A stretch of DNA of 23,365 nt from a virus. The stretch spans positions 1-23,365 of the IMG/VR virus record IMGVR_UViG_3300022699_000162; one strand, 5' to 3'. The translations under genes were made by a program, and so were the position numbers. The notes under the pieces are model-generated. The model worked only from the letters and a program-made list of their open reading frames with translations, was not told the DNA's origin and searched no databases. This document shows, one piece after another, positions 4,457 to 13,250 of the stretch (its first letter is position 1; every line of letters begins with the position of its first letter).

Positions 4457-4646
4457 AGTATATGCCGATTACGTACATAAGATAGAAGCCTTGAAAGAAG
4501 AAAACGAAAAGATCGATATGACTCAATTCATAAATGAGACGAATGAAACGGAAATGCTTGATATCCACGAAGCCTTATCCTTAGATCCGAAAGAGGTAAT
4601 AAATGAAAGTATTAATAGCATGCGAAGAAAGCCAAGTTGTTCTTAA
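4425..4646 (+). CDS. Unknown small acidic protein, 73 aa
   Basis: The start lies 32 bases inside the end of the DUF551-like gene (ATGGTGACG) and the stop lies 44 bases inside the methyltransferase-like gene. The product is Glu/Asn-rich and helical (VHKIEALKEENEKIDMTQFINETNETEM, in parts) with LDIHEALSLDPKEVINE near the end. The last eight residues come from the overlap and are Arg/Ser/Cys-rich. It is the only open frame covering 4457-4602, which supports it. No family recognised. The ribosome site (ATATATC) is poor, so translation may depend on coupling. Confidence 0.55.
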   Translation: MVTKIPPQTNEVYADYVHKIEALKEENEKIDMTQFINETNETEMLDIHEALSLDPKEVINESINSMRRKPSCS

Positions 4647-5238
4647 GGAATTTCTTTCTTTAGGCTCCGATGTTTATTCTTGTGATCTTGAGCCATGTTC
4701 CGGAGAATTCCCCGAAAGACATTTACGACAAGATGTTATTCCGTTGCTTAATGATGATTGGGATTTGATTATTGCTCATCCCCCTTGCACATATTTAACA
4801 ATATGCGGCAATAAATGGATGAATCCTAAATTTAAAGATCGTTTTCCGGATAGACAAGGACGCCGTGAGGAAGCGATAGAATTTTTCATGAAGTTTGCAT
4901 TATGCAAATGTAATCATATAGCGATCGAAAATCCTGTCGGAATAATTAGTACTACATGGAGAAAGCCTGATCAGTATGTAGAACCGTTCTGGTTTGGTGA
5001 TCCGCAAAGAAAGAAAACAGGATTATGGCTCAAGAATCTTCCGAAGCTTGAACCTACGAATATCGTTAAGCCAAAGTTGTATAAATATAAGAACGGCAAG
5101 ACCGATCCGGCATGGCATTGGGAAACAAAGGCATTAAGTCAAAAAGAAAGATCAAGAATTAGAAGTAGAACATTTACCGGATTTGCCAAAGCAATGGCCG
5201 AACAATGGTTCGAATACGTCAAAAACAAAGGAGTTTAA
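4603..5238 (+). CDS. Phage DNA cytosine methyltransferase-like protein
   Basis: 211 aa with GAGG 5-9 bases before the ATG. The start LIACEESQ (4-11) matches the S-adenosylmethionine-binding motif I region of this phage family, followed by CDLEP (27-31). HPPCTYLT (59-66) carries the Pro-Cys catalytic motif IV of C5-cytosine methylases, and ENPVG (109-113) is the motif VI-like ENV equivalent. The C-terminal RSRTFTGFAKAMAEQW is typical. It is much shorter than classical Dcm enzymes and lacks an obvious target-recognition domain, so its specificity cannot be read. The likely role is self-modification against restriction, since no partner endonuclease is visible. Whether it is active is an inference. 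Confidence 0.75.
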   Translation: MKVLIACEESQVVLKEFLSLGSDVYSCDLEPCSGEFPERHLRQDVIPLLNDDWDLIIAHPPCTYLTICGNKWMNPKFKDRFPDRQGRREEAIEFFMKFALCKCNHIAIENPVGIISTTWRKPDQYVEPFWFGDPQRKKTGLWLKNLPKLEPTNIVKPKLYKYKNGKTDPAWHWETKALSQKERSRIRSRTFTGFAKAMAEQWFEYVKNKGV

Positions 5239-5563: not shown

Positions 5564-5809
5564 ATGTTCATAGAATTAACAACAAATTCAAGCTACGACA
5601 TTGAAGGCGGAATTTTATCAATCTTTCCGAACAAAACAGATTGTATTCATTTCACGATAGATTCGGTCGCTTCAATCCATGAGTTTAGGTCTGAATGCGA
5701 AATCGTGACATTCGCGGAAAATTATAAGCTTTTCAACATGGAAGGGCCGGTGATGGGATATATCATCAAAGCTTTGTTAGACAGTTTAAAAGAATACGAT
5801 AAAGATTAA
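5564..5809 (+). CDS. Unknown small protein closing the early operon, 81 aa
   Basis: ATG preceded by AAGGAG. The product is acidic, mixed alpha/beta by pattern: MFIELTTNSSYDIEGGILSI, CIHFTIDSVASIHEFRSECE, then a C-terminal helix MGYIIKALLDSLKEYDKD. No membrane segment or known motif. It is separated from the previous gene by 90 bases that contain no recognised signal, and is followed at once by the convergent terminator zone. Confidence 0.7.
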   Translation: MFIELTTNSSYDIEGGILSIFPNKTDCIHFTIDSVASIHEFRSECEIVTFAENYKLFNMEGPVMGYIIKALLDSLKEYDKD

Positions 5810-6289: not shown

Positions 6290-8025
6290 GCCTTCACCAA
6301 TTCCTTGACATTCCAATCAAATTGATTTGGTAATGTTTGTCTATATTGAATCCTTTTAGGGAGAGCGGACTTACCCCAAAAATGCCTGTGTTTTGAGAAC
6401 TCCATAACTAAATCAATGGAAGAATCATTCGAGGTTTCTTCTTGATATATAGCATTTCTCCCAACAGAAAGATCTTCATATGGAGTAAGTTTAATAATGG
6501 TAGACATAGGAATTATCATTTTTTGAGAACCGACGATCTCATTTGATCTATTGGCATGATGGATCAATATTAAAGTTTTGTTCTTTGAAATTTGATCTTT
6601 ATAAAAGTGTTGTATCTTTTCCCATGATTTTACAAGACTTTGTTGGTAATCGTTTCCGTCTGATTGGTGTAAATTGTAATAGTTATCCATTATGATAACG
6701 TCGTAATTCATCATGGCATCTTCCACCATCTTAAGGTGTCCTTCATTCAATAAATTGAATTCCAGTATGTCTAACTTATGAATAGATGATGTGGTTAACA
6801 ATCCAAAATGGTCTTCCTCTAATTCGTCGTTTTTATGTGCAAAAACCATTTGCTTTAATCGGGTTTGGCATTCGAGATCGTTCATTTCCGAATCAATGTA
6901 TAAGACTTTTCTTTTATTTGTTTTATATCCAAGGAAGTCACAGCCAATAGCAATCGATAAACCAAGCTCATAGGAAAAAAAGGATTTTCCAATCCCACTC
7001 TTTCCGATAATTATATTCATAGTATTGGTAGCTAAAAAAGGTTCAACGACAAAAGACCTGGTGGGTATTTCTAAAGATAGATACTCCGTAAGACCATAGA
7101 CAGGCAAGAAAGTTGATCGTAAACATTTTAAACAATGTTCTTTCCCATGTTTTATGTATAAGTCATTAAAATCGTTGCACTCCAAATTGTCGGGAAAAAC
7201 CAGATAAGGGCTTACAAGCTCTTGCCATTTATCCTTTTCTTTAAAAGAAGCTTCGTCATTTTCTCCACAGAAAATAAACTTTGCTCCCGTAAAGCATGAT
7301 CTCAATTCAATTCCACATGGAACAACATTAGAAGCGCTCAAAGCACAAACCACCGGTTTTTGCGTTATAGCATAAATACTTGCCCCTGTTGCATATCCCT
7401 CGCAAAAATAGATTTCTCCCTTGTAATCAGATTCCATATGAGGAAACATAAAGAATCTTCTTTTTGTTAGAGCCCCATATAACATTTTCTTAGATCCATC
7501 CGGCGATATGAACTGTAAAGATCTGATATTGAACTTTGAGTCATAGATCGGAATGACTAATGTGTCTACGTTAACCTTTACTCCTCCAAGAGCAGACACT
7601 TGTTTGGTTTCTAAATAAGAATGCTCGCTAACATTTTCCGAATTTGAAATAATCGCTTTTGCTTTCTCACAGGCAAGATCGTCTTCTTTTTGCAATTCAA
7701 GTTGCAGCTTTTTAAGATGTAAAGTTTTCTCTCTTTCAATCTCCTCAATCTCATCTTTGTTAAATCTTTTGGATCCCTTATTGTTCCATGATTTAGAAAT
7801 ATGTAACGAAAAAGAACCAAAGCAAACGTGTATATATCCATTTGGTAAAACAATTCCCGAGTACCATTCGCTTTTATTTGAAGAGCCATGAGAATCAAAT
7901 TTATGGATCTTGTTATCCAAGACCAAAACATCTTCATGAAAAAAGATCCCTTTTTCTTGCATGAAGTGGATTAAAGAAATTAATTTATTTGAAGGTACGA
8001 CGTTTTCTTGATATAATTCAGACAT
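6286..8025 (-). CDS. TOPRIM primase fused to RepA-type replicative ATPase/helicase
   Basis: 579 aa, three parts. Residues 1-95 are a DUF3987/TraC-like N-terminal region with YSGIVLPNGYIHVCFGS, preceding a Glu/Lys helical linker (92-130). Residues 150-300 hold a TOPRIM fold: PIYDSKFNIRSLQFISPDG, EIYFCEGYATGASI (Glu209 catalytic), CGENDEAS (Asp257) and CNDFNDL (283-289). Residues 325-530 are a RecA/RepA-like ATPase with Walker A GKSGIGKS (341-348), LYIDSEM (375-381), Walker B DVIIMDNYY (442-450) and LILIHHANRS (485-494). The fusion makes RNA primers and probably unwinds DNA at the fork. It has no zinc-binding domain. No DNA polymerase is visible in the window, so a host or distant phage polymerase would be used. 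Confidence 0.85.
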   Translation of the reverse strand: MSELYQENVVPSNKLISLIHFMQEKGIFFHEDVLVLDNKIHKFDSHGSSNKSEWYSGIVLPNGYIHVCFGSFSLHISKSWNNKGSKRFNKDEIEEIEREKTLHLKKLQLELQKEDDLACEKAKAIISNSENVSEHSYLETKQVSALGGVKVNVDTLVIPIYDSKFNIRSLQFISPDGSKKMLYGALTKRRFFMFPHMESDYKGEIYFCEGYATGASIYAITQKPVVCALSASNVVPCGIELRSCFTGAKFIFCGENDEASFKEKDKWQELVSPYLVFPDNLECNDFNDLYIKHGKEHCLKCLRSTFLPVYGLTEYLSLEIPTRSFVVEPFLATNTMNIIIGKSGIGKSFFSYELGLSIAIGCDFLGYKTNKRKVLYIDSEMNDLECQTRLKQMVFAHKNDELEEDHFGLLTTSSIHKLDILEFNLLNEGHLKMVEDAMMNYDVIIMDNYYNLHQSDGNDYQQSLVKSWEKIQHFYKDQISKNKTLILIHHANRSNEIVGSQKMIIPMSTIIKLTPYEDLSVGRNAIYQEETSNDSSIDLVMEFSKHRHFWGKSALPKRIQYRQTLPNQFDWNVKELVKA

Positions 8026-8762: not shown

Positions 8763-8894
8763 CTTGGATCCAAAGAAACATGGGACTAAAGATCTATAAG
8801 ACAGAACTTGGATTCCAAGAAACATTGGTCTATAGCTATAAAGAATAGATATTAGATATTAAAAAACATGGGTCTAAGGCGTTAAAGCTTTACA
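8763..8894 (+). repeat. Three tandem 44-bp imperfect repeats (iteron-like)
   Basis: Units start at 8763, 8807 and 8851. The first two share CTTGGAT at +1 and AAGAAACAT at +11; all three share AACATGGGNCTA-like blocks at 8777, 8821 and 8865, exactly 44 bases apart. The third unit has diverged at its left end. Each block is followed by an AT-rich TATAA or TTAAA segment. The same core recurs inverted at 8929-8957 and 9278-9306. Candidate initiator or regulator binding sites. Confidence 0.6.
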
Positions 8895-8970: not shown

Positions 8971-9249
8971 TTAATCTAAGAACTGTTTGAGAGGAGCCAG
9001 CTTTTTTAAGCTAAGGCTGGCCTTTGAGATCTTATAATGTTCCAGAAGATCATGAAAATAATCGTCATCTACGGTAACGACTTCGTTTTCTTCAAAGTCG
9101 GCCGTAAAAAACACCAATTGATAAAAATATTTAGGAATATAGACTTTGTTGACATTATCCGAGACTCTTCCTTGAGTCAAGACCATAAAATAATTATTTA
9201 CATCGTTTTTTATTTTCGGTACTTTCTTTTCAAAAATCAATCCTTCCAT
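8971..9249 (-). CDS. Unknown small protein between 29-bp repeats, 92 aa
   Basis: AAAGGAG lies 7 bases before the ATG. The product starts MEGLIFEKKVPKIKNDVNNYF, has a strand-rich centre (VYIPKYFYQLVFFTADFEENEVVTVDDD) and ends in helices (YFHDLLEHYKISKASLSLKKLAPLKQFL, in parts). It looks soluble, about neutral. No family is recognised. A TATAAT box inside the repeat upstream (9284-9279) may drive it alone, separately from the genes to its right. Being enclosed by two copies of the repeat, it may encode the protein that binds them, but no DNA-binding motif is visible. Confidence 0.7.
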   Translation of the reverse strand: MEGLIFEKKVPKIKNDVNNYFMVLTQGRVSDNVNKVYIPKYFYQLVFFTADFEENEVVTVDDDYFHDLLEHYKISKASLSLKKLAPLKQFLD

Positions 9250-9277
9250 GTTATTTCTCCTTTGTAGAAAGATAGAC

Positions 9278-9306
9278 GATTATACGCCAAATTAGGCCTA
9301 TTCTCG
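9278..9306 (-). repeat. Copy 2 of the 29-bp repeat, with a TATAAT box
   Basis: The same repeat as 8929-8957, 349 bases away in direct orientation. On the minus strand it contains TAGGCCTAA and then a perfect TATAAT (9284-9279) at the right distance to drive the gene at 8971-9249. No TTGACA-like -35 is present; the conserved part of the repeat occupies that place, so an activator or repressor site is plausible. Confidence 0.6.
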
Positions 9307-9358
9307 TTGATTCTAGTATGTCTAAAGAATGTAGACTTACGTTACTCAAACAGATCTG

Positions 9359-9856
9359 TTAGCATGAGGTATAAATAATTTCAGGATATATATTGATTTG
9401 TTGATAGTAACCACAAATTTCAATCGCATTATCAACAATTTCAATCGTTCTCTCAAGTTGCTCTTTGTACCATGATTGACAATCAATGTCTTGCCGGGAA
9501 AATTCCTCAATTGTAGGAAAGATACCATTAGCCTGTTTATCCTCAAATAGCAAACATTTACAGACTTTCTTTAAGTTACGCAAAGTATTTTCACATAATA
9601 TGAATTCTACTCCGTCTGAATCGGTAGAATATAAAAAGTTTTTTATCAACTCATCAATTTGATATGCATTTCTCCAGCATCCAATTTCAACAAGTGCATA
9701 CATTTTTATATTATCTTTTTCACGCCTAAATTTATTGTTGGCTAAAATTTTATGTTTTTCATCCTCCAGAAATACATAAAGATATTTTTCATGGTTATAT
9801 TTATTACTCTTGTCTCCAACTTCTACGCGAAGTGAAAGTGTCATGGATAAGCCCAT
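9359..9856 (-). CDS. Phage conserved protein of the GLDM/WRKAN type, function unknown
   Basis: 165 aa. The product opens MGLSMTLSL and has ALVEIGCWRNAYQIDELI (54-71), then CENTLRNLKKVCKCLL, SRQDIDCQSWYKEQLERTIEIVDNAI near the end. I recognise the layout of a widespread phage protein family: a GLDMYL start, an EVxYWRKANxIHxW motif, a V...L..LL..C..VL helix and a final WYxxDLxxTIEIL helix. The function of the family is unknown, and some database labels attached to it are unreliable. The start at 9856 is preferred over the internal Met because GLxM belongs to the family. AGAGGA precedes it. It follows a small gene by 13 bases. Confidence 0.7.
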   Translation of the reverse strand: MGLSMTLSLRVEVGDKSNKYNHEKYLYVFLEDEKHKILANNKFRREKDNIKMYALVEIGCWRNAYQIDELIKNFLYSTDSDGVEFILCENTLRNLKKVCKCLLFEDKQANGIFPTIEEFSRQDIDCQSWYKEQLERTIEIVDNAIEICGYYQQINIYPEIIYTSC

Positions 9857-9869
9857 AAATCCTCTTATT

Positions 9870-10049
9870 TTAAATTACTCTTAAGTGTTGTTGATTCTTT
9901 AACCACCACCGCATTCTTTTATAAACGCCTTCAATCTCCGAATCATTTCCCCCTGCAAACCAATAATCGTAGTATACCATATTAAGCTCCAATAGGTTAC
10001 AGCATTGCTCCAATCTATCTTTCCAAGTGTCAAAATCAAGTTCGTACAT
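9870..10049 (-). CDS. Small unknown protein, 59 aa
   Basis: The ATG at 10049 opens a frame of 59 codons to TAA at 9870: MYELDFDTWKDRLEQCCNLL, then ELNMVYYDYWFAGGNDSE and a C-terminal VYKRMRWWLKNQQHLRVI. It is Trp/Tyr-rich with two adjacent cysteines. The ribosome site is weak (AAAAGAT). It is the first gene after the strong leftward promoter at 10082-10110 and fits snugly against the next gene, which supports it. No family recognised. Confidence 0.6.
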   Translation of the reverse strand: MYELDFDTWKDRLEQCCNLLELNMVYYDYWFAGGNDSEIEGVYKRMRWWLKNQQHLRVI

Positions 10050-10071: not shown

Positions 10072-10110
10072 GTTTGATCTTAAAATATCAAACCATTTTA
10101 CATTTGTCAA
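10072..10110 (-). promoter_or_regulatory. Leftward promoter with palindromic operator
   Basis: On the minus strand a perfect TTGACA (10110-10105), 17-base spacer and TATTTT (10087-10082) give one of the best promoters in the window. GTTTGAT (10072-10078) and ATCAAAC (10087-10093) form a 7-bp inverted repeat across the -10 box and start site, a candidate operator. It re-initiates transcription just past the terminators at 10118-10228, making 10049-8971 a separate unit. Confidence 0.65.
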
Positions 10111-10117
10111 TAAAAGA

Positions 10118-10159
10118 GCCCCGTCATTTAGGTGGCAAGTGGAGACAAGCCGACGGGGC
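10118..10159 (-). terminator. Second leftward terminator, with a large loop
   Basis: GCCCCGTC (10118-10125) and GACGGGGC (10152-10159) form an 8-bp GC-rich stem. Read leftward it is followed by TCTTTTATT, a terminator layout, but the loop is 26 bases. The loop carries, in the leftward RNA, an 11-base sequence complementary to the ribosome sites of two genes upstream in the same transcript (see findings). Confidence 0.6.
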
Positions 10160-10168
10160 ATAAGAAAA

Positions 10169-10228
10169 GCTCAAGATCAAAACCACAAAGTGGGGAACAC
10201 TTTTCGGAAACATAAAACGATCTTGAGC
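10169..10228 (-). terminator. First leftward terminator, nested hairpins
   Basis: GCTCAAGATC (10169-10178) pairs with GATCTTGAGC (10219-10228), enclosing a second hairpin AAAGTG/CACTTT (10187-10203). Leftward it is followed by TTTTC. It stands 15 bases past the gene ending at 10243. The nested form and 40-base loop are unusual for a simple terminator. Confidence 0.55.
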
Positions 10229-10242
10229 ATGTTTTAATCTAT

Positions 10243-10527
10243 TTATGATGGGATAATCTTATCCAAAAGAAATTTTGTGATAAAGTAAAGTGTCGTGTCT
10301 TCAACATCCAATTCATTTAAATTGTCATTTTCAAGGATAATAAATTTTTCTATCTCCGCTCTAATGTATAATGGTATCATTGCCGAAAAACAGCACGATT
10401 CTTCACTGAATTCTCTAAATCTTAGTTTCTCTCTTAAGTATTTATCAATGTAGTCTCTTTGGATTAATCCCATTTTTTTTAAGTTTTCATAAATTAAGGA
10501 AGTCATTTCAAATACGTTATTTCTCAT
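10243..10527 (-). CDS. Unknown small protein, 94 aa
   Basis: The internal ATG at 10527 is chosen because GGAGATTTGGA precedes it. The frame extends to 10596, but that part lies within the previous gene. The product opens MRNNVFEMTSLIYENLKKMG, continues with a charged helix (IQRDYIDKYLREKLRFREFSEE) and ends in ELDVEDTTLYFITKFLLDKI. Soluble and helical by pattern. It overlaps the upstream gene by 11 bases and is the last gene before the paired terminators. It shares a size and style with the gene at 10517-10825 but no clear homology. Confidence 0.65.
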   Translation of the reverse strand: MRNNVFEMTSLIYENLKKMGLIQRDYIDKYLREKLRFREFSEESCCFSAMIPLYIRAEIEKFIILENDNLNELDVEDTTLYFITKFLLDKIIPS

Positions 10528-10825
10528 TCCAAATCTCCAAATTAATAAGTTCGCTGAGAATATTCGAGAAAAATTTGACAAATCCTTGAATATCACAGTT
10601 TATTTTAATATTTATACAATTCTCAAGTGCTTTACCATCAATTAATAAGCAATTAATGATTTCTAGCGTCTTATCTAAATCAATTTTAGACGAAGAAATA
10701 TTACGCTTGGTAATAAAGTCATCGATCAAAGCAATCTTGATATCCTCGAATAGCTCTATGTTAGCCTGTCTGTATTTTTCTATAATGTCATCTCTTAAAA
10801 GATCTCTTAATTTCTTCTCATTCAT
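10517..10825 (-). CDS. Unknown small helical protein, 102 aa
   Basis: AGGAG lies 7 bases before the ATG, which overlaps the upstream stop by 8 bases. The product is helical and rich in Ile, Leu, Asn and Asp: MNEKKLRDLLRDDIIEKYRQ, IALIDDFITKRNISSSKI, DLDKTLEIINCLLIDGKALENC. No membrane segment, no DNA-binding motif, no family recognised. It belongs to the tightly overlapping set running from ardA to 10243. Confidence 0.7.
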   Translation of the reverse strand: MNEKKLRDLLRDDIIEKYRQANIELFEDIKIALIDDFITKRNISSSKIDLDKTLEIINCLLIDGKALENCINIKINCDIQGFVKFFSNILSELINLEIWNEK

Positions 10826-11102
10826 TTTCTAACTCCTGCTTTCGTTGTTGAAACCATGTAACCAACGCATCTTTAGCGCTCCACCCTTCGAAGTAATAGA
10901 AGTCTTCTTCCAAGATGTGCTCAAATGTTTTATCAAAGTAATCTTCTATTGTCTCATCTTCGCAACCATCAAGGTATTGTACGTCTCCAATCAGTCTTCT
11001 AATTACAAAGTCAAAGATCAGTTGAGCCGTGTCTTTATACACGTGCTCAAGATACCATTCATCATAATTCATCTTATCATCAACATAGGGCTCAAGTCTC
11101 AT
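10818..11102 (-). CDS. Unknown very acidic protein, candidate DNA mimic, 94 aa
   Basis: The ATG at 11102 overlaps the previous stop (ATGA) and follows GGTGGAAG. The frame extends seven codons further into the previous gene. The product is strikingly rich in Asp/Glu and aromatic residues: MRLEPYVDDKMNYDEWYLEHVY, YLDGCEDETIEDYFDKTFEHILEEDFYYFEGW in pieces, then LVTWFQQRKQELENE. This composition resembles DNA-mimic anti-restriction proteins, and ardA lies two genes upstream in the operon. This is inference from composition and context. No family is recognised. Confidence 0.7.
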   Translation of the reverse strand: MRLEPYVDDKMNYDEWYLEHVYKDTAQLIFDFVIRRLIGDVQYLDGCEDETIEDYFDKTFEHILEEDFYYFEGWSAKDALVTWFQQRKQELENE

Positions 11103-11293
11103 CTTCCACCCCCGCGAATCCAACCGTTTGCATAGTCCAAAGCAAGTTGATACATTTCATTGTATCTGGCCGTGTATTCAAAGATTGAAGCATACTCCCG
11201 CGCAAAGTCCACGGGGTCAATAACACGATCTAAATCAACTTCACATTGGGCAATGTATTCATCTAAATAATCCGGCAATTCCATATCTTTCAT
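11099..11293 (-). CDS. Unknown small acidic protein, 64 aa
   Basis: The start at 11293 (MKDMELPDYLDEYIAQ) is chosen because GGGGGGAA precedes it. The frame runs on to 11353 but into ardA. The product is acidic: CEVDLDRVIDPVDFAREYAS, YTARYNEMYQLALDYANGWIRGGGR. Helical by pattern. It begins 18 bases past the ardA stop and ends in an ATGA overlap. It may assist or extend the anti-defence function of ArdA, but nothing beyond acidity and position shows this. Confidence 0.65.
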   Translation of the reverse strand: MKDMELPDYLDEYIAQCEVDLDRVIDPVDFAREYASIFEYTARYNEMYQLALDYANGWIRGGGR

Positions 11294-11310
11294 GTTTTCC
11301 CCCCACCCCG

Positions 11311-11838
11311 TTATGAAGCGTAGTAATAAAGATTTACGCGATAATTTAAACATATTTTATCGAATACGCCGTTTAAGCATTGATCATGGTAGTAACTTTC
11401 AAAATCAAAGTAATCAATAACATCGTTTGGTGTGTTTTCAAAAAATCCTGTGTCATCCAAGTATTGTTCGATAAAATCAATGTCACTTTCGTAAACGCCA
11501 ATTACTTTGTCTTTTATGCAACGTAGCGCGGCATCAATTTGTTTTCCGTAGTCGTTATAAAATATCGCAAATGCATAGCGGTCATTATCGTCAGATTGAT
11601 CTTGCAATGCTTCCGCAATATCGGATATTTGTTTAAAGGATTCATCTGTAACATTAATCCCATAAAAGTATTGATAGTCATCAATAGAATATTCATCCTT
11701 ACCACAGATCTCATTAACACGCTCCCAAATATGTTCTTCTCCAAGCGTGCAGTCAATCCACTCACCGCTTAAAAAGCCTTCGTTGTATTTTCTTAAGTTT
11801 GAAACCCAAATCATTGGTTTAAAGTCTTGATCTTTCAT
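11311..11838 (-). CDS. ardA: ArdA-family antirestriction protein
   Basis: 175 aa, close to the usual 165-180. Family features appear in order: MIWVSNLRKYNEGFLSGEWIDC (9-30), matching the IYVASLxxYNxGxLxGxWID opening; EHIWERVNEIC; EYSIDDYQYF (49-58); GVYESDIDFIEQY (114-126); and YFDFESYYHDQCLNGVF (143-159). It is very acidic. ArdA dimers mimic B-form DNA and block type I restriction-modification enzymes, so the phage DNA would survive entry. The leader contains TGGAGACAAGC before the ATG, shared with the gene upstream. A hairpin at 11869-11884 lies between the two genes and may attenuate expression. Confidence 0.85.
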   Translation of the reverse strand: MKDQDFKPMIWVSNLRKYNEGFLSGEWIDCTLGEEHIWERVNEICGKDEYSIDDYQYFYGINVTDESFKQISDIAEALQDQSDDNDRYAFAIFYNDYGKQIDAALRCIKDKVIGVYESDIDFIEQYLDDTGFFENTPNDVIDYFDFESYYHDQCLNGVFDKICLNYRVNLYYYAS

Positions 11839-11859
11839 TGCTTGTCTCCATTTATGTTT
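11839..11859 (-). repeat. Duplicated translation leader, ardA copy
   Basis: The 21 bases before the ardA start are identical to those at 12140-12160 before the next gene upstream. On the mRNA they read AAACATAAATGGAGACAAGCA, the GGAG acting as ribosome binding site. Two adjacent genes with the same leader suggest gene or leader duplication, or joint post-transcriptional control. Confidence 0.8.
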
Positions 11860-11868
11860 GTTGATAAA

Positions 11869-11884
11869 GCCCCCGTTAAGGGGC
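11869..11884 (-). terminator. Hairpin between the 81-aa gene and ardA, possible attenuator
   Basis: GCCCC (11869-11873) and GGGGC (11880-11884) form a 5-bp GC stem with a 6-base loop. Leftward it is followed only by TTTATC, so termination would be partial. It would let the 81-aa protein be made in excess of ArdA. Confidence 0.4.
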
Positions 11885-11892
11885 GTTTAGAT

Positions 11893-12138
11893 CTAATAAC
11901 CAAGTAATTGTTTGTTGTATTCAGTAGCTAAGACAATAGTCTTTGGTTTCTTGGCTCTAGCAGAATAAAACGCAACATATTCCAGGTTATCTTTGTCCAG
12001 TAAAATACACTTTCGGTATGAAACTCTATTTGTGTAACGGTCCAGATATTCCATAGGCTCGCATAGCTCAACAAGATCTTGCCCGTTAATGTTGTGTGTT
12101 GCTTGGCCCTCTGCAATTAAAGAATCATATGTATACAT
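11893..12138 (-). CDS. First gene of the ardA operon, unknown, 81 aa
   Basis: Starts with ATG after TGGAGACAAGCAA. The product is MYTYDSLIAEGQATHNINGQD followed by LVELCEPMEYLDRYTNRVSY and a basic strand-like C-terminus (CILLDKDNLEYVAFYSARAKKPKTIVLATEYN). Mixed alpha/beta, soluble. No family recognised. As the first gene behind the divergent promoter region it would be the earliest expressed of this block, shared leader with ardA suggesting joint control. Small proteins beside ArdA in mobile elements are often anti-defence factors, which is only a contextual hint here. Confidence 0.7.
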   Translation of the reverse strand: MYTYDSLIAEGQATHNINGQDLVELCEPMEYLDRYTNRVSYRKCILLDKDNLEYVAFYSARAKKPKTIVLATEYNKQLLGY

Positions 12139-12139
12139 T

Positions 12140-12160
12140 TGCTTGTCTCCATTTATGTTT
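12140..12160 (-). repeat. Duplicated translation leader, copy of the 81-aa gene
   Basis: Identical over 21 bases to 11839-11859. It is preceded (mRNA sense) by two copies of ACTACAAG (12177-12192), a short tandem repeat in the leader. Confidence 0.8.
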
Positions 12161-12230
12161 TGTGTTTTTTGTCTTGTAGTCTTGTAGTCTCACACTCTTT
12201 AGTAGCTTGTTGCTTGCCGTGGTGCTCGTG

Positions 12231-12266
12231 ACTATATCCATATAGTAGCATGTATAATCATTATAC
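12231..12266. promoter_or_regulatory. Divergent promoter/operator with two palindromes
   Basis: GTATAATCATTATAC (12252-12266) is a perfect 15-bp palindrome carrying an extended -10 box (TGTATAAT) on each strand. The leftward one would drive the ardA operon from about 12253; its -35 (TTTTTA) is weak. ACTATATCCATATAGT (12231-12246) is a second palindrome lying at the start of that leftward transcript. The first palindrome closely resembles that at 1250-1264 beside the HTH gene. Confidence 0.5.
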
Positions 12267-12291
12267 ACAACAAGCTCTAACATAAAAAGAT

Positions 12292-13055: not shown

Positions 13056-13250
13056 ATGAAATACTTTACTATCTTGTTTTTATTCTTCGTGAGTTGTGAG
13101 TCTTTACCTTTTTGGCAAGCTGACAACCCGCTTGAAGAAGCGATCGAAGAAGTGATCTACGATAATACGGGCTATGACATAGATCTAACGCCATCAAGCC
13201 CCGAGGCTCGCAAGGGAGCTAAAGTCTATCATATGGATATCAACTATTGA
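13056..13250 (+). CDS. Small predicted lipoprotein
   Basis: 64 aa with GGGGAA before the ATG. The N-terminus MKYFTILFLFFVSCESLPF is a signal peptide ending in a lipobox-like FVSC, so cleavage and lipid attachment at Cys14 is expected. The mature part contains NPLEEAIEEVIYDNTGYDIDLTPSSPE (in pieces), a pattern I associate with small proteins of podophage packaging modules. It would be anchored in the host membrane, perhaps for superinfection exclusion or lysis help. It does not have the proline-rich character of Rz1. Function unknown. Confidence 0.7.
   Translation: MKYFTILFLFFVSCESLPFWQADNPLEEAIEEVIYDNTGYDIDLTPSSPEARKGAKVYHMDINY

Follow-up and report, generated by a model that had tools for sequence, protein, structure and literature searches.

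The minus strand of the virus record IMGVR_UViG_3300022699_000162 carries a gene for an anti-restriction protein of the ArdA family (ardA) in the company of five small orphan genes, referred to here as g81, g64, g94, g102 and g94b. The whole record, 23,365 bases in length, was analysed and is called the window below. On balance, we favor the view that these genes make up an accessory, probably early-expressed operon anchored by ArdA, in which two of the orphans behind ardA, the acidic proteins g64 and g94, stand out as candidate additional inhibitors. The arrangement is an ordinary one for phages, an odd RNA feature at the end of the operon aside, and what is new are the orphan neighbors of an ArdA of known type.

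A preliminary description of this DNA had named an ArdA gene, and the call was borne out for the gene at 11311-11838. Its product matches Pfam PF07275 with 82.1 bits against a cut-off of 27, covering profile positions 1-146 of 155, and matches the PHROG family phrog_2059, labeled 'anti-restriction protein'. A phmmer comparison with the ArdA of Tn916 (ORF18), for which a structure has been solved (PDB 2w82), returned an E-value of 7.5e-9, and 17 of the 21 positions common to at least 75% of 87 ArdAs are kept. Because 80 ArdAs from viral contigs (the best 80 of 163 relatives) were gathered with a YFD pattern, the conservation of the C-terminal YFD stretch is partly built in. The protein is also acidic, like its family, with a net charge of −23, or −0.131 per residue, where the 87 ArdAs average −0.153 (standard deviation 0.037). 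While the match spans the length of the family, the protein is only 24-30% identical to seven phage ArdAs, and a search of viral contigs returned no close relative. Among 50,697 phage records searched with tblastn, 49 contained ArdAs, each at less than 60% identity. Judged by these comparisons, the identification is sound and ordinary for phages. Most likely the protein would act as other ArdAs do, as an acidic mimic of DNA that fills the groove in which host Type I restriction enzymes bind DNA; that it belongs to the family can be read from the sequence, whereas this activity and the timing of expression are what we infer from it.

ArdA was previously described as sharing an operon with five small, overlapping genes. 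Small genes on the same strand are indeed present at those positions, but they do not form a set of five overlapping ones. Behind ardA a gap of 17 nucleotides leads to g64, and g94, g102 and g94b then follow with overlaps of 4, 8 and 11 nucleotides; the fifth gene, g81, lies upstream of ardA across 54 nucleotides that contain a hairpin. The layout is therefore one run of ardA plus four genes, with one separate gene upstream (Table 1). The four genes behind ardA are packed as they would be for coupled translation, and g64 has an alternative, longer reading from a start at 11353, within ardA. Codon use argues that these genes are coding: the nine genes that run from 11893-12138 to 8971-9249 each outscored all 49 wrong-frame control open reading frames (ORFs), in a test whose training set included ardA itself. 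An overlapping ORF at 12125-12283 and three ORFs on the opposite strand did not outscore the wrong-frame controls, and the former is probably non-coding. Two stem-loops with the look of terminators follow g94b, and the region that holds both (10095-10242) folds with a z-score of −5.07. The hairpin between g81 and ardA is a possible weak terminator or attenuator. A terminator scan limited to loops of 3-8 bases listed neither of the two stem-loops nor this hairpin. No promoter is claimed, because a promoter scan gave 18 sites where 16.3 were expected, and a scan against Rfam gave nothing at gathering score.

Table 1. Features of the ardA region and the methyltransferase-like gene (positions in the window).
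Feature	Position	Strand	Description
Leader of g81	12139-12160	−	22 nucleotides; GGAGA 7 nucleotides before ATG; identical to 11838-11859
g81	11893-12138	−	81 residues, orphan; leader shared with ardA
Hairpin between g81 and ardA	11869-11884	−	Fold z-score −2.10; equalled by 7 of 200 shuffles
Leader of ardA	11838-11859	−	22 nucleotides; GGAGA 6 nucleotides before ATG; last base is the A of ATG
ardA	11311-11838	−	175 residues, anti-restriction protein, ArdA family
g64	11099-11293	−	64 residues, acidic orphan
g94	10818-11102	−	94 residues, acidic aromatic orphan
g102	10517-10825	−	102 residues, orphan
g94b	10243-10527	−	94 residues, orphan
First stem-loop 3' of g94b	10161-10236	−	Inverted repeat I4, then U-rich sequence; terminator-like
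Second stem-loop 3' of g94b	10118-10159	−	Inverted repeats I7 and I8; U tail; loop 10137-10150
Methyltransferase-like gene	4603-5238	+	phrog_757, 220.7 bits, residues 1-209

The products of 10818-11102 and 11099-11293 had been singled out as markedly acidic and aromatic, and the calculated values agree. The protein g94 has a net charge of −16 (−0.170 per residue) with 19.1% aromatic residues, and g64 a net charge of −8 (−0.125 per residue) with 15.6%. Both thereby display the strong negative charge that is a trait of DNA mimics. We tabulated the charge of 40 ORFs including ardA. When the other 39, which include the probably non-coding 12125-12283, are ranked by net charge per residue, g94 and g64 take the first two places for acidity, followed by 13056-13250 (−0.109) and 5564-5809 (−0.099). 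With random ranks, the chance that the two ORFs right behind ardA should be the most acidic of 39 is 1 in 741, a figure computed post hoc. The remaining small proteins of the group are near neutral to mildly acidic, with net charges of −1 for g81, −4 for g102 and −4 for g94b, and carry no inhibitor-like mark.

Acidic small genes also lie behind ArdA in other phages. Using crude gene calls, we compared 88 loci, some drawn from phage records and others from viral contigs; 87 held an ArdA ORF (78 of them distinct). Downstream genes entered the count if they encoded 45-160 residues, were arranged as in an operon and lay on the strand of ArdA no more than four places behind it; a gene with no close neighbor on its strand was excluded, as were genes outside this length range and second copies of identical proteins. 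With a cut of −0.125 per residue or lower, 18 of 130 downstream genes were acidic, compared with 14 of 237 genes more than 3 kb distant (Fisher 0.012, Mann-Whitney 0.001) and 5 of 99 upstream of ArdA. An earlier and looser count, which pooled upstream and downstream genes, gave 27/252 near ArdA and 22/506 far from it. When pseudo-anchors were placed within the same loci, the observed acidic fraction was reached in 4 of 1000 permutations. The small genes downstream of phage ArdAs are modestly enriched for acidic proteins, which is suggestive. Among the matches listed in the open-licence literature, no title or abstract opening dealt with acidic genes downstream of phage ardA.

The setting of the operon is consistent with an accessory role. 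In this tailed phage it appears to have the replication module on one side and the packaging module on the other, and would probably be expressed early. The terminase gene of the window has 47 relatives, 35 at 60-73% identity and 12 at 33-38%. Crude ORF calls for 16 of these loci revealed that at least seven (L003, L005, L006, L011, L013, L017 and L033) possess a minus-strand run of other small genes, standing just before plus-strand packaging genes. A PHROG scan of 34 proteins, taken from eight relative loci, left at least 26 without a match at E 0.001. One that did match is the product of 6929-7903 in L017, a DNA methyltransferase (phrog_363, 209.5 bits); presumably the same protein accounts for the one match among the 34 to the C-5 cytosine methylase family PF00145, at 2.6e-36. 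The cassette in question, a minus-strand run at 4449-9117 of L017, occupies the corresponding position, and the methyltransferase gene in it adjoins a ParB-like gene. The differing cassettes of these relatives, together with the L017 methyltransferase, therefore point to a variable accessory site that holds a restriction-related gene in two phages. A comparable clustering is described for plasmids, in which ardA groups with anti-CRISPRs and methyltransferases (PMC7648647). The operon resembles such anti-defence islands of plasmids and phages in that its ardA lies in an accessory cluster and that a relative has a methyltransferase gene at the equivalent position, but unlike them its cluster has no second proven anti-defence gene. 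In bacterial genomes, the only match to the terminase was a Gracilibacteria metagenome-assembled genome at 33% identity, which is too distant for the host to be named from it.

What would g64 and g94 do in such an operon? Of the orphans, these two are in our view the strongest candidates for a role as additional inhibitors of host enzymes, possibly as small DNA mimics, though that at least one of the two inhibits a defence system is a tentative proposal that we would rather doubt than assert. Like T7 Ocr (PMC7261183) and mimics of its kind, they are small acidic proteins of a phage, but by sequence neither matches anything in Pfam or PHROGs, nor does g94 in the PDB. Likewise, g64 and g94 fall within the size range and acidity of the small ArdAs sArdN and sArdC, which are reported to be active with an identity to ArdA of only about 19% (PMC12548430), yet g64 and g94 lack significant ArdA similarity. 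This likeness raises the alternative that one or both are decayed or trimmed pieces of an ArdA. In its favor, size and charge fit, g94 is the top-scoring protein of the window other than ArdA itself against a profile of the 87 ArdAs, aligning at the conserved YFD stretch, and HHalign found faint, local similarity of both proteins to the C-terminal part of ArdA. These HHalign matches have probabilities of about 2%, however, and the profile scores were equalled by 307 (g94) and 354 (g64) of 2000 shuffles. An origin of g64 and g94 as ArdA fragments was thus left without support, and we rate it as very improbable.

A natural pair of a full-length and a small ArdA may possibly exist elsewhere: in Pelagibacter phage Jormungand (L139, 39-906), a 76-codon gene annotated as ArdA overlaps a full-length ArdA gene.

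A more serious competitor to the ArdA-anchored operon with further inhibitors is that ardA alone serves anti-restriction in what is a general accessory cassette, the neighbors being unrelated host-takeover or filler genes with the acidity typical of small early phage proteins. Several observations weigh in this direction and against the reading that we favor. Those annotated phage ArdA loci that were opened are usually full of unknown small genes, and the cassettes at the same position in the relatives hold other small genes that mostly match no PHROG. None of the 47 records with a related terminase contained an ArdA by a search that does detect the ArdA of the window, although many of these records are short fragments. 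Searched by tblastn, the stretches fetched from the same 47 records yielded no counterpart of g81, ardA, g64, g94, g102, g94b or the gene at 9870-10049. The eight proteins of the block besides ArdA had no match better than E 0.03 in Pfam, PHROG, NCBIfam or PADLOC. In collections that may omit records very near the window's own, we found no meaningful relatives of g81, g64, g94, g102 and g94b among phage records, none of g94, g102, g64 and g81 among viral contigs, none of g94 (the only one searched) among bacterial genomes, and no meaningful ones of g94 and g64 (the only two searched) among plasmids, where one match reached E 0.6. Furthermore, g64 and g94 are not demonstrably derived from ArdA, and their single-sequence structure models are all-helical and weak, with a mean predicted local distance difference test score (pLDDT) of 57.3 for g94 and 69.3 for g64. 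The preliminary description had proposed structure prediction with charge mapping, and the models of these two proteins proved too weak for the mapping. A Foldseek search of the PDB with the weak g64 model found nothing. The charge comparison across phages has its own weaknesses: the acidic cut is g64's own value, the loci are not independent of one another, the gene calls are crude, and the mean charge downstream of ArdA, as opposed to the acidic fraction, was matched in 65 of 1000 permutations and is not significant. The signal therefore sits in the acidic tail of the distribution. The permuted pseudo-anchors, moreover, already have 7.8% acidic proteins among the small genes behind them.

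Two results speak against so general an explanation, namely that the two most acidic ORFs of the charge table are exactly the pair behind ardA, and that the downstream excess lies above 996 of 1000 permutations. We therefore take a lone ArdA among unrelated genes to be a real possibility, if one that falls short of an even chance. For an ArdA-anchored operon with g64 and g94 as candidate inhibitors speak the family evidence for ArdA, the tight packing of the genes, their coding codon use, the terminator-like stem-loops after the last gene, the acidity rank of g94 and g64, the enrichment downstream of other ArdAs, the methyltransferase cassette of L017 and the clustering known from plasmids. 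Of the anti-defence block that had been proposed around ArdA, the anchor thus stands. The rest is suggested by the acidic enrichment and the L017 methyltransferase, against which must be set small proteins without families or relatives, weak models, and the unknown small genes that are usual around ArdA. An ArdA-led anti-defence cassette is plausible, being supported for ArdA and no more than suggested for the other genes.

One candidate relationship was rejected along the way: a short similarity of g81 to jumbo coliphages (E of 0.3 or more) was dropped, as it ran antisense to an annotated gene in the single record opened. Within the window, a further orphan gene of 161-165 residues lies at 9359-9856, with one weak match in the relative L047 (E 0.002) and none in phage records.

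The odd feature at the end of the operon concerns the leaders of g81 and ardA. The loop of the second terminal stem-loop is antisense to the core of their shared leader over 13 of 14 nucleotides, 11 of them consecutive. We infer that leader and terminal hairpin lie on one transcript. Since the loop holds an inverted copy of the leader core, an RNA spanning the whole operon would then contain, at the 3' end, a stretch antisense to the sites where its own translation starts. The terminal loop could pair with the Shine-Dalgarno leader of ardA and g81 and reduce the translation of both genes, either in cis or after its release as a small RNA. An antisense match of this kind occurred anywhere in only 3 of 300 simulated windows, and allowing one mismatch the window has four 11-mer matches where 0.36 are expected, one of them inside a gene. 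The longest exact run against the loop is 11 bases for ardA and g81, 7 for the capsid gene and at most 6 for the other 14 leaders compared. A precedent exists in icaR of Staphylococcus aureus, in which a pyrimidine-rich stretch of the 3' untranslated region is complementary to the Shine-Dalgarno sequence of its own mRNA (PMC3868564). The likeness lies in this 3'-terminal complementarity to the Shine-Dalgarno region of one transcript; unlike icaR, the present case is a phage operon in which the complementarity is longer (13/14) and two leaders would be targeted.

Against such pairing, the calculated duplex energies are not specific to ardA, as among 31 other leaders two, belonging to the capsid gene and to g94, beat that of ardA and five equal or beat that of g81. 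The net gain from co-folding with the terminal hairpin is merely about 3.7 kcal/mol for ardA and 6.0 kcal/mol for g81. The feature was also noticed post hoc, and in 136 other loci an 11-base antisense was found in downstream intergenic DNA for 29 of 2617 genes and anywhere within 4 kb downstream for 131 of 2617; at such base rates the complementarity may be due to chance. We consider regulation by the loop unlikely. At about even chances stands the view that the repeated leader is a start element that strongly binds ribosomes or is bound by a protein, and that its inverted copy in the hairpin is a coincidence or a binding site. The GGAGA placed 6-7 nucleotides before ATG fits this, as does the capsid gene, which has GGAGACA immediately 5' of its ATG. 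So do the start-associated sequences (SAS) of Cluster K mycobacteriophages, which are asymmetric, lie upstream of starts and are rarely found in the opposite orientation (PMC3203893). Like SAS, the leader repeat is short, lacks symmetry and directly precedes start codons, but it differs in sequence and has only two leader copies in the window, with one more inverted in a hairpin. This third copy, central in the hairpin loop and without a start codon behind it, is what a start element does not account for. A search of viral contigs gave no exact copy of the 21-nucleotide leader. A bolder combination, in which the terminal loop, made once the whole operon is transcribed, acts as an RNA brake by pairing with the ardA and g81 leader and so limits the DNA mimic, while g64 and g94 are two new and unrelated tiny acidic inhibitors, strikes us as decidedly improbable.

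The methyltransferase-like gene at 4603-5238 had been taken, together with ArdA, to suggest several layers of restriction evasion. The family match itself was confirmed (Table 1), and by this match the gene is a member of a common phage methyltransferase family; it lies on the opposite strand about 5 kb from the ardA operon and is separate from it. Its product had no match in Pfam or NCBIfam. With tblastn, 555 of the 50,697 phage records contained relatives of the protein, and in 200 of these the match covered 80% or more of its length. Matches to phrog_757 occurred in 6 of 50 ArdA records (three strong) and in 1 of the 47 records with a related terminase (weak); because the two sets of records differ in length, an association with ArdA is suggestive at most. 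Several layers of restriction evasion may exist in this phage. In another ArdA locus (L075), two relatives of this protein are encoded just downstream of the ArdA gene, at 6889-7653 and 9113-9763 (E 1.2e-61 and 1.3e-44).

Two further features of the window deserve mention. Three tandem copies of an imperfect 44-nucleotide repeat (77-81% identical to the first copy over 26 nucleotides) stand at 8763-8877, between a primase-like gene and the small-gene block. At 104-616, a weak match to a tail-fibre family (phrog_1491, 28.1 bits) adjoins a RusA-like resolvase gene, an odd site for a tail gene.

Taken as a group, ArdA-led cassettes such as this one would be a practical hunting ground for unknown counter-defence genes. 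If the acidity downstream of ArdA across phages is upheld on better gene calls, it would provide a simple filter for such genes, with g64 and g94 as cheap first candidates. Should it be true that the terminal loop regulates ardA, the operon would represent RNA control of a DNA-mimic inhibitor.

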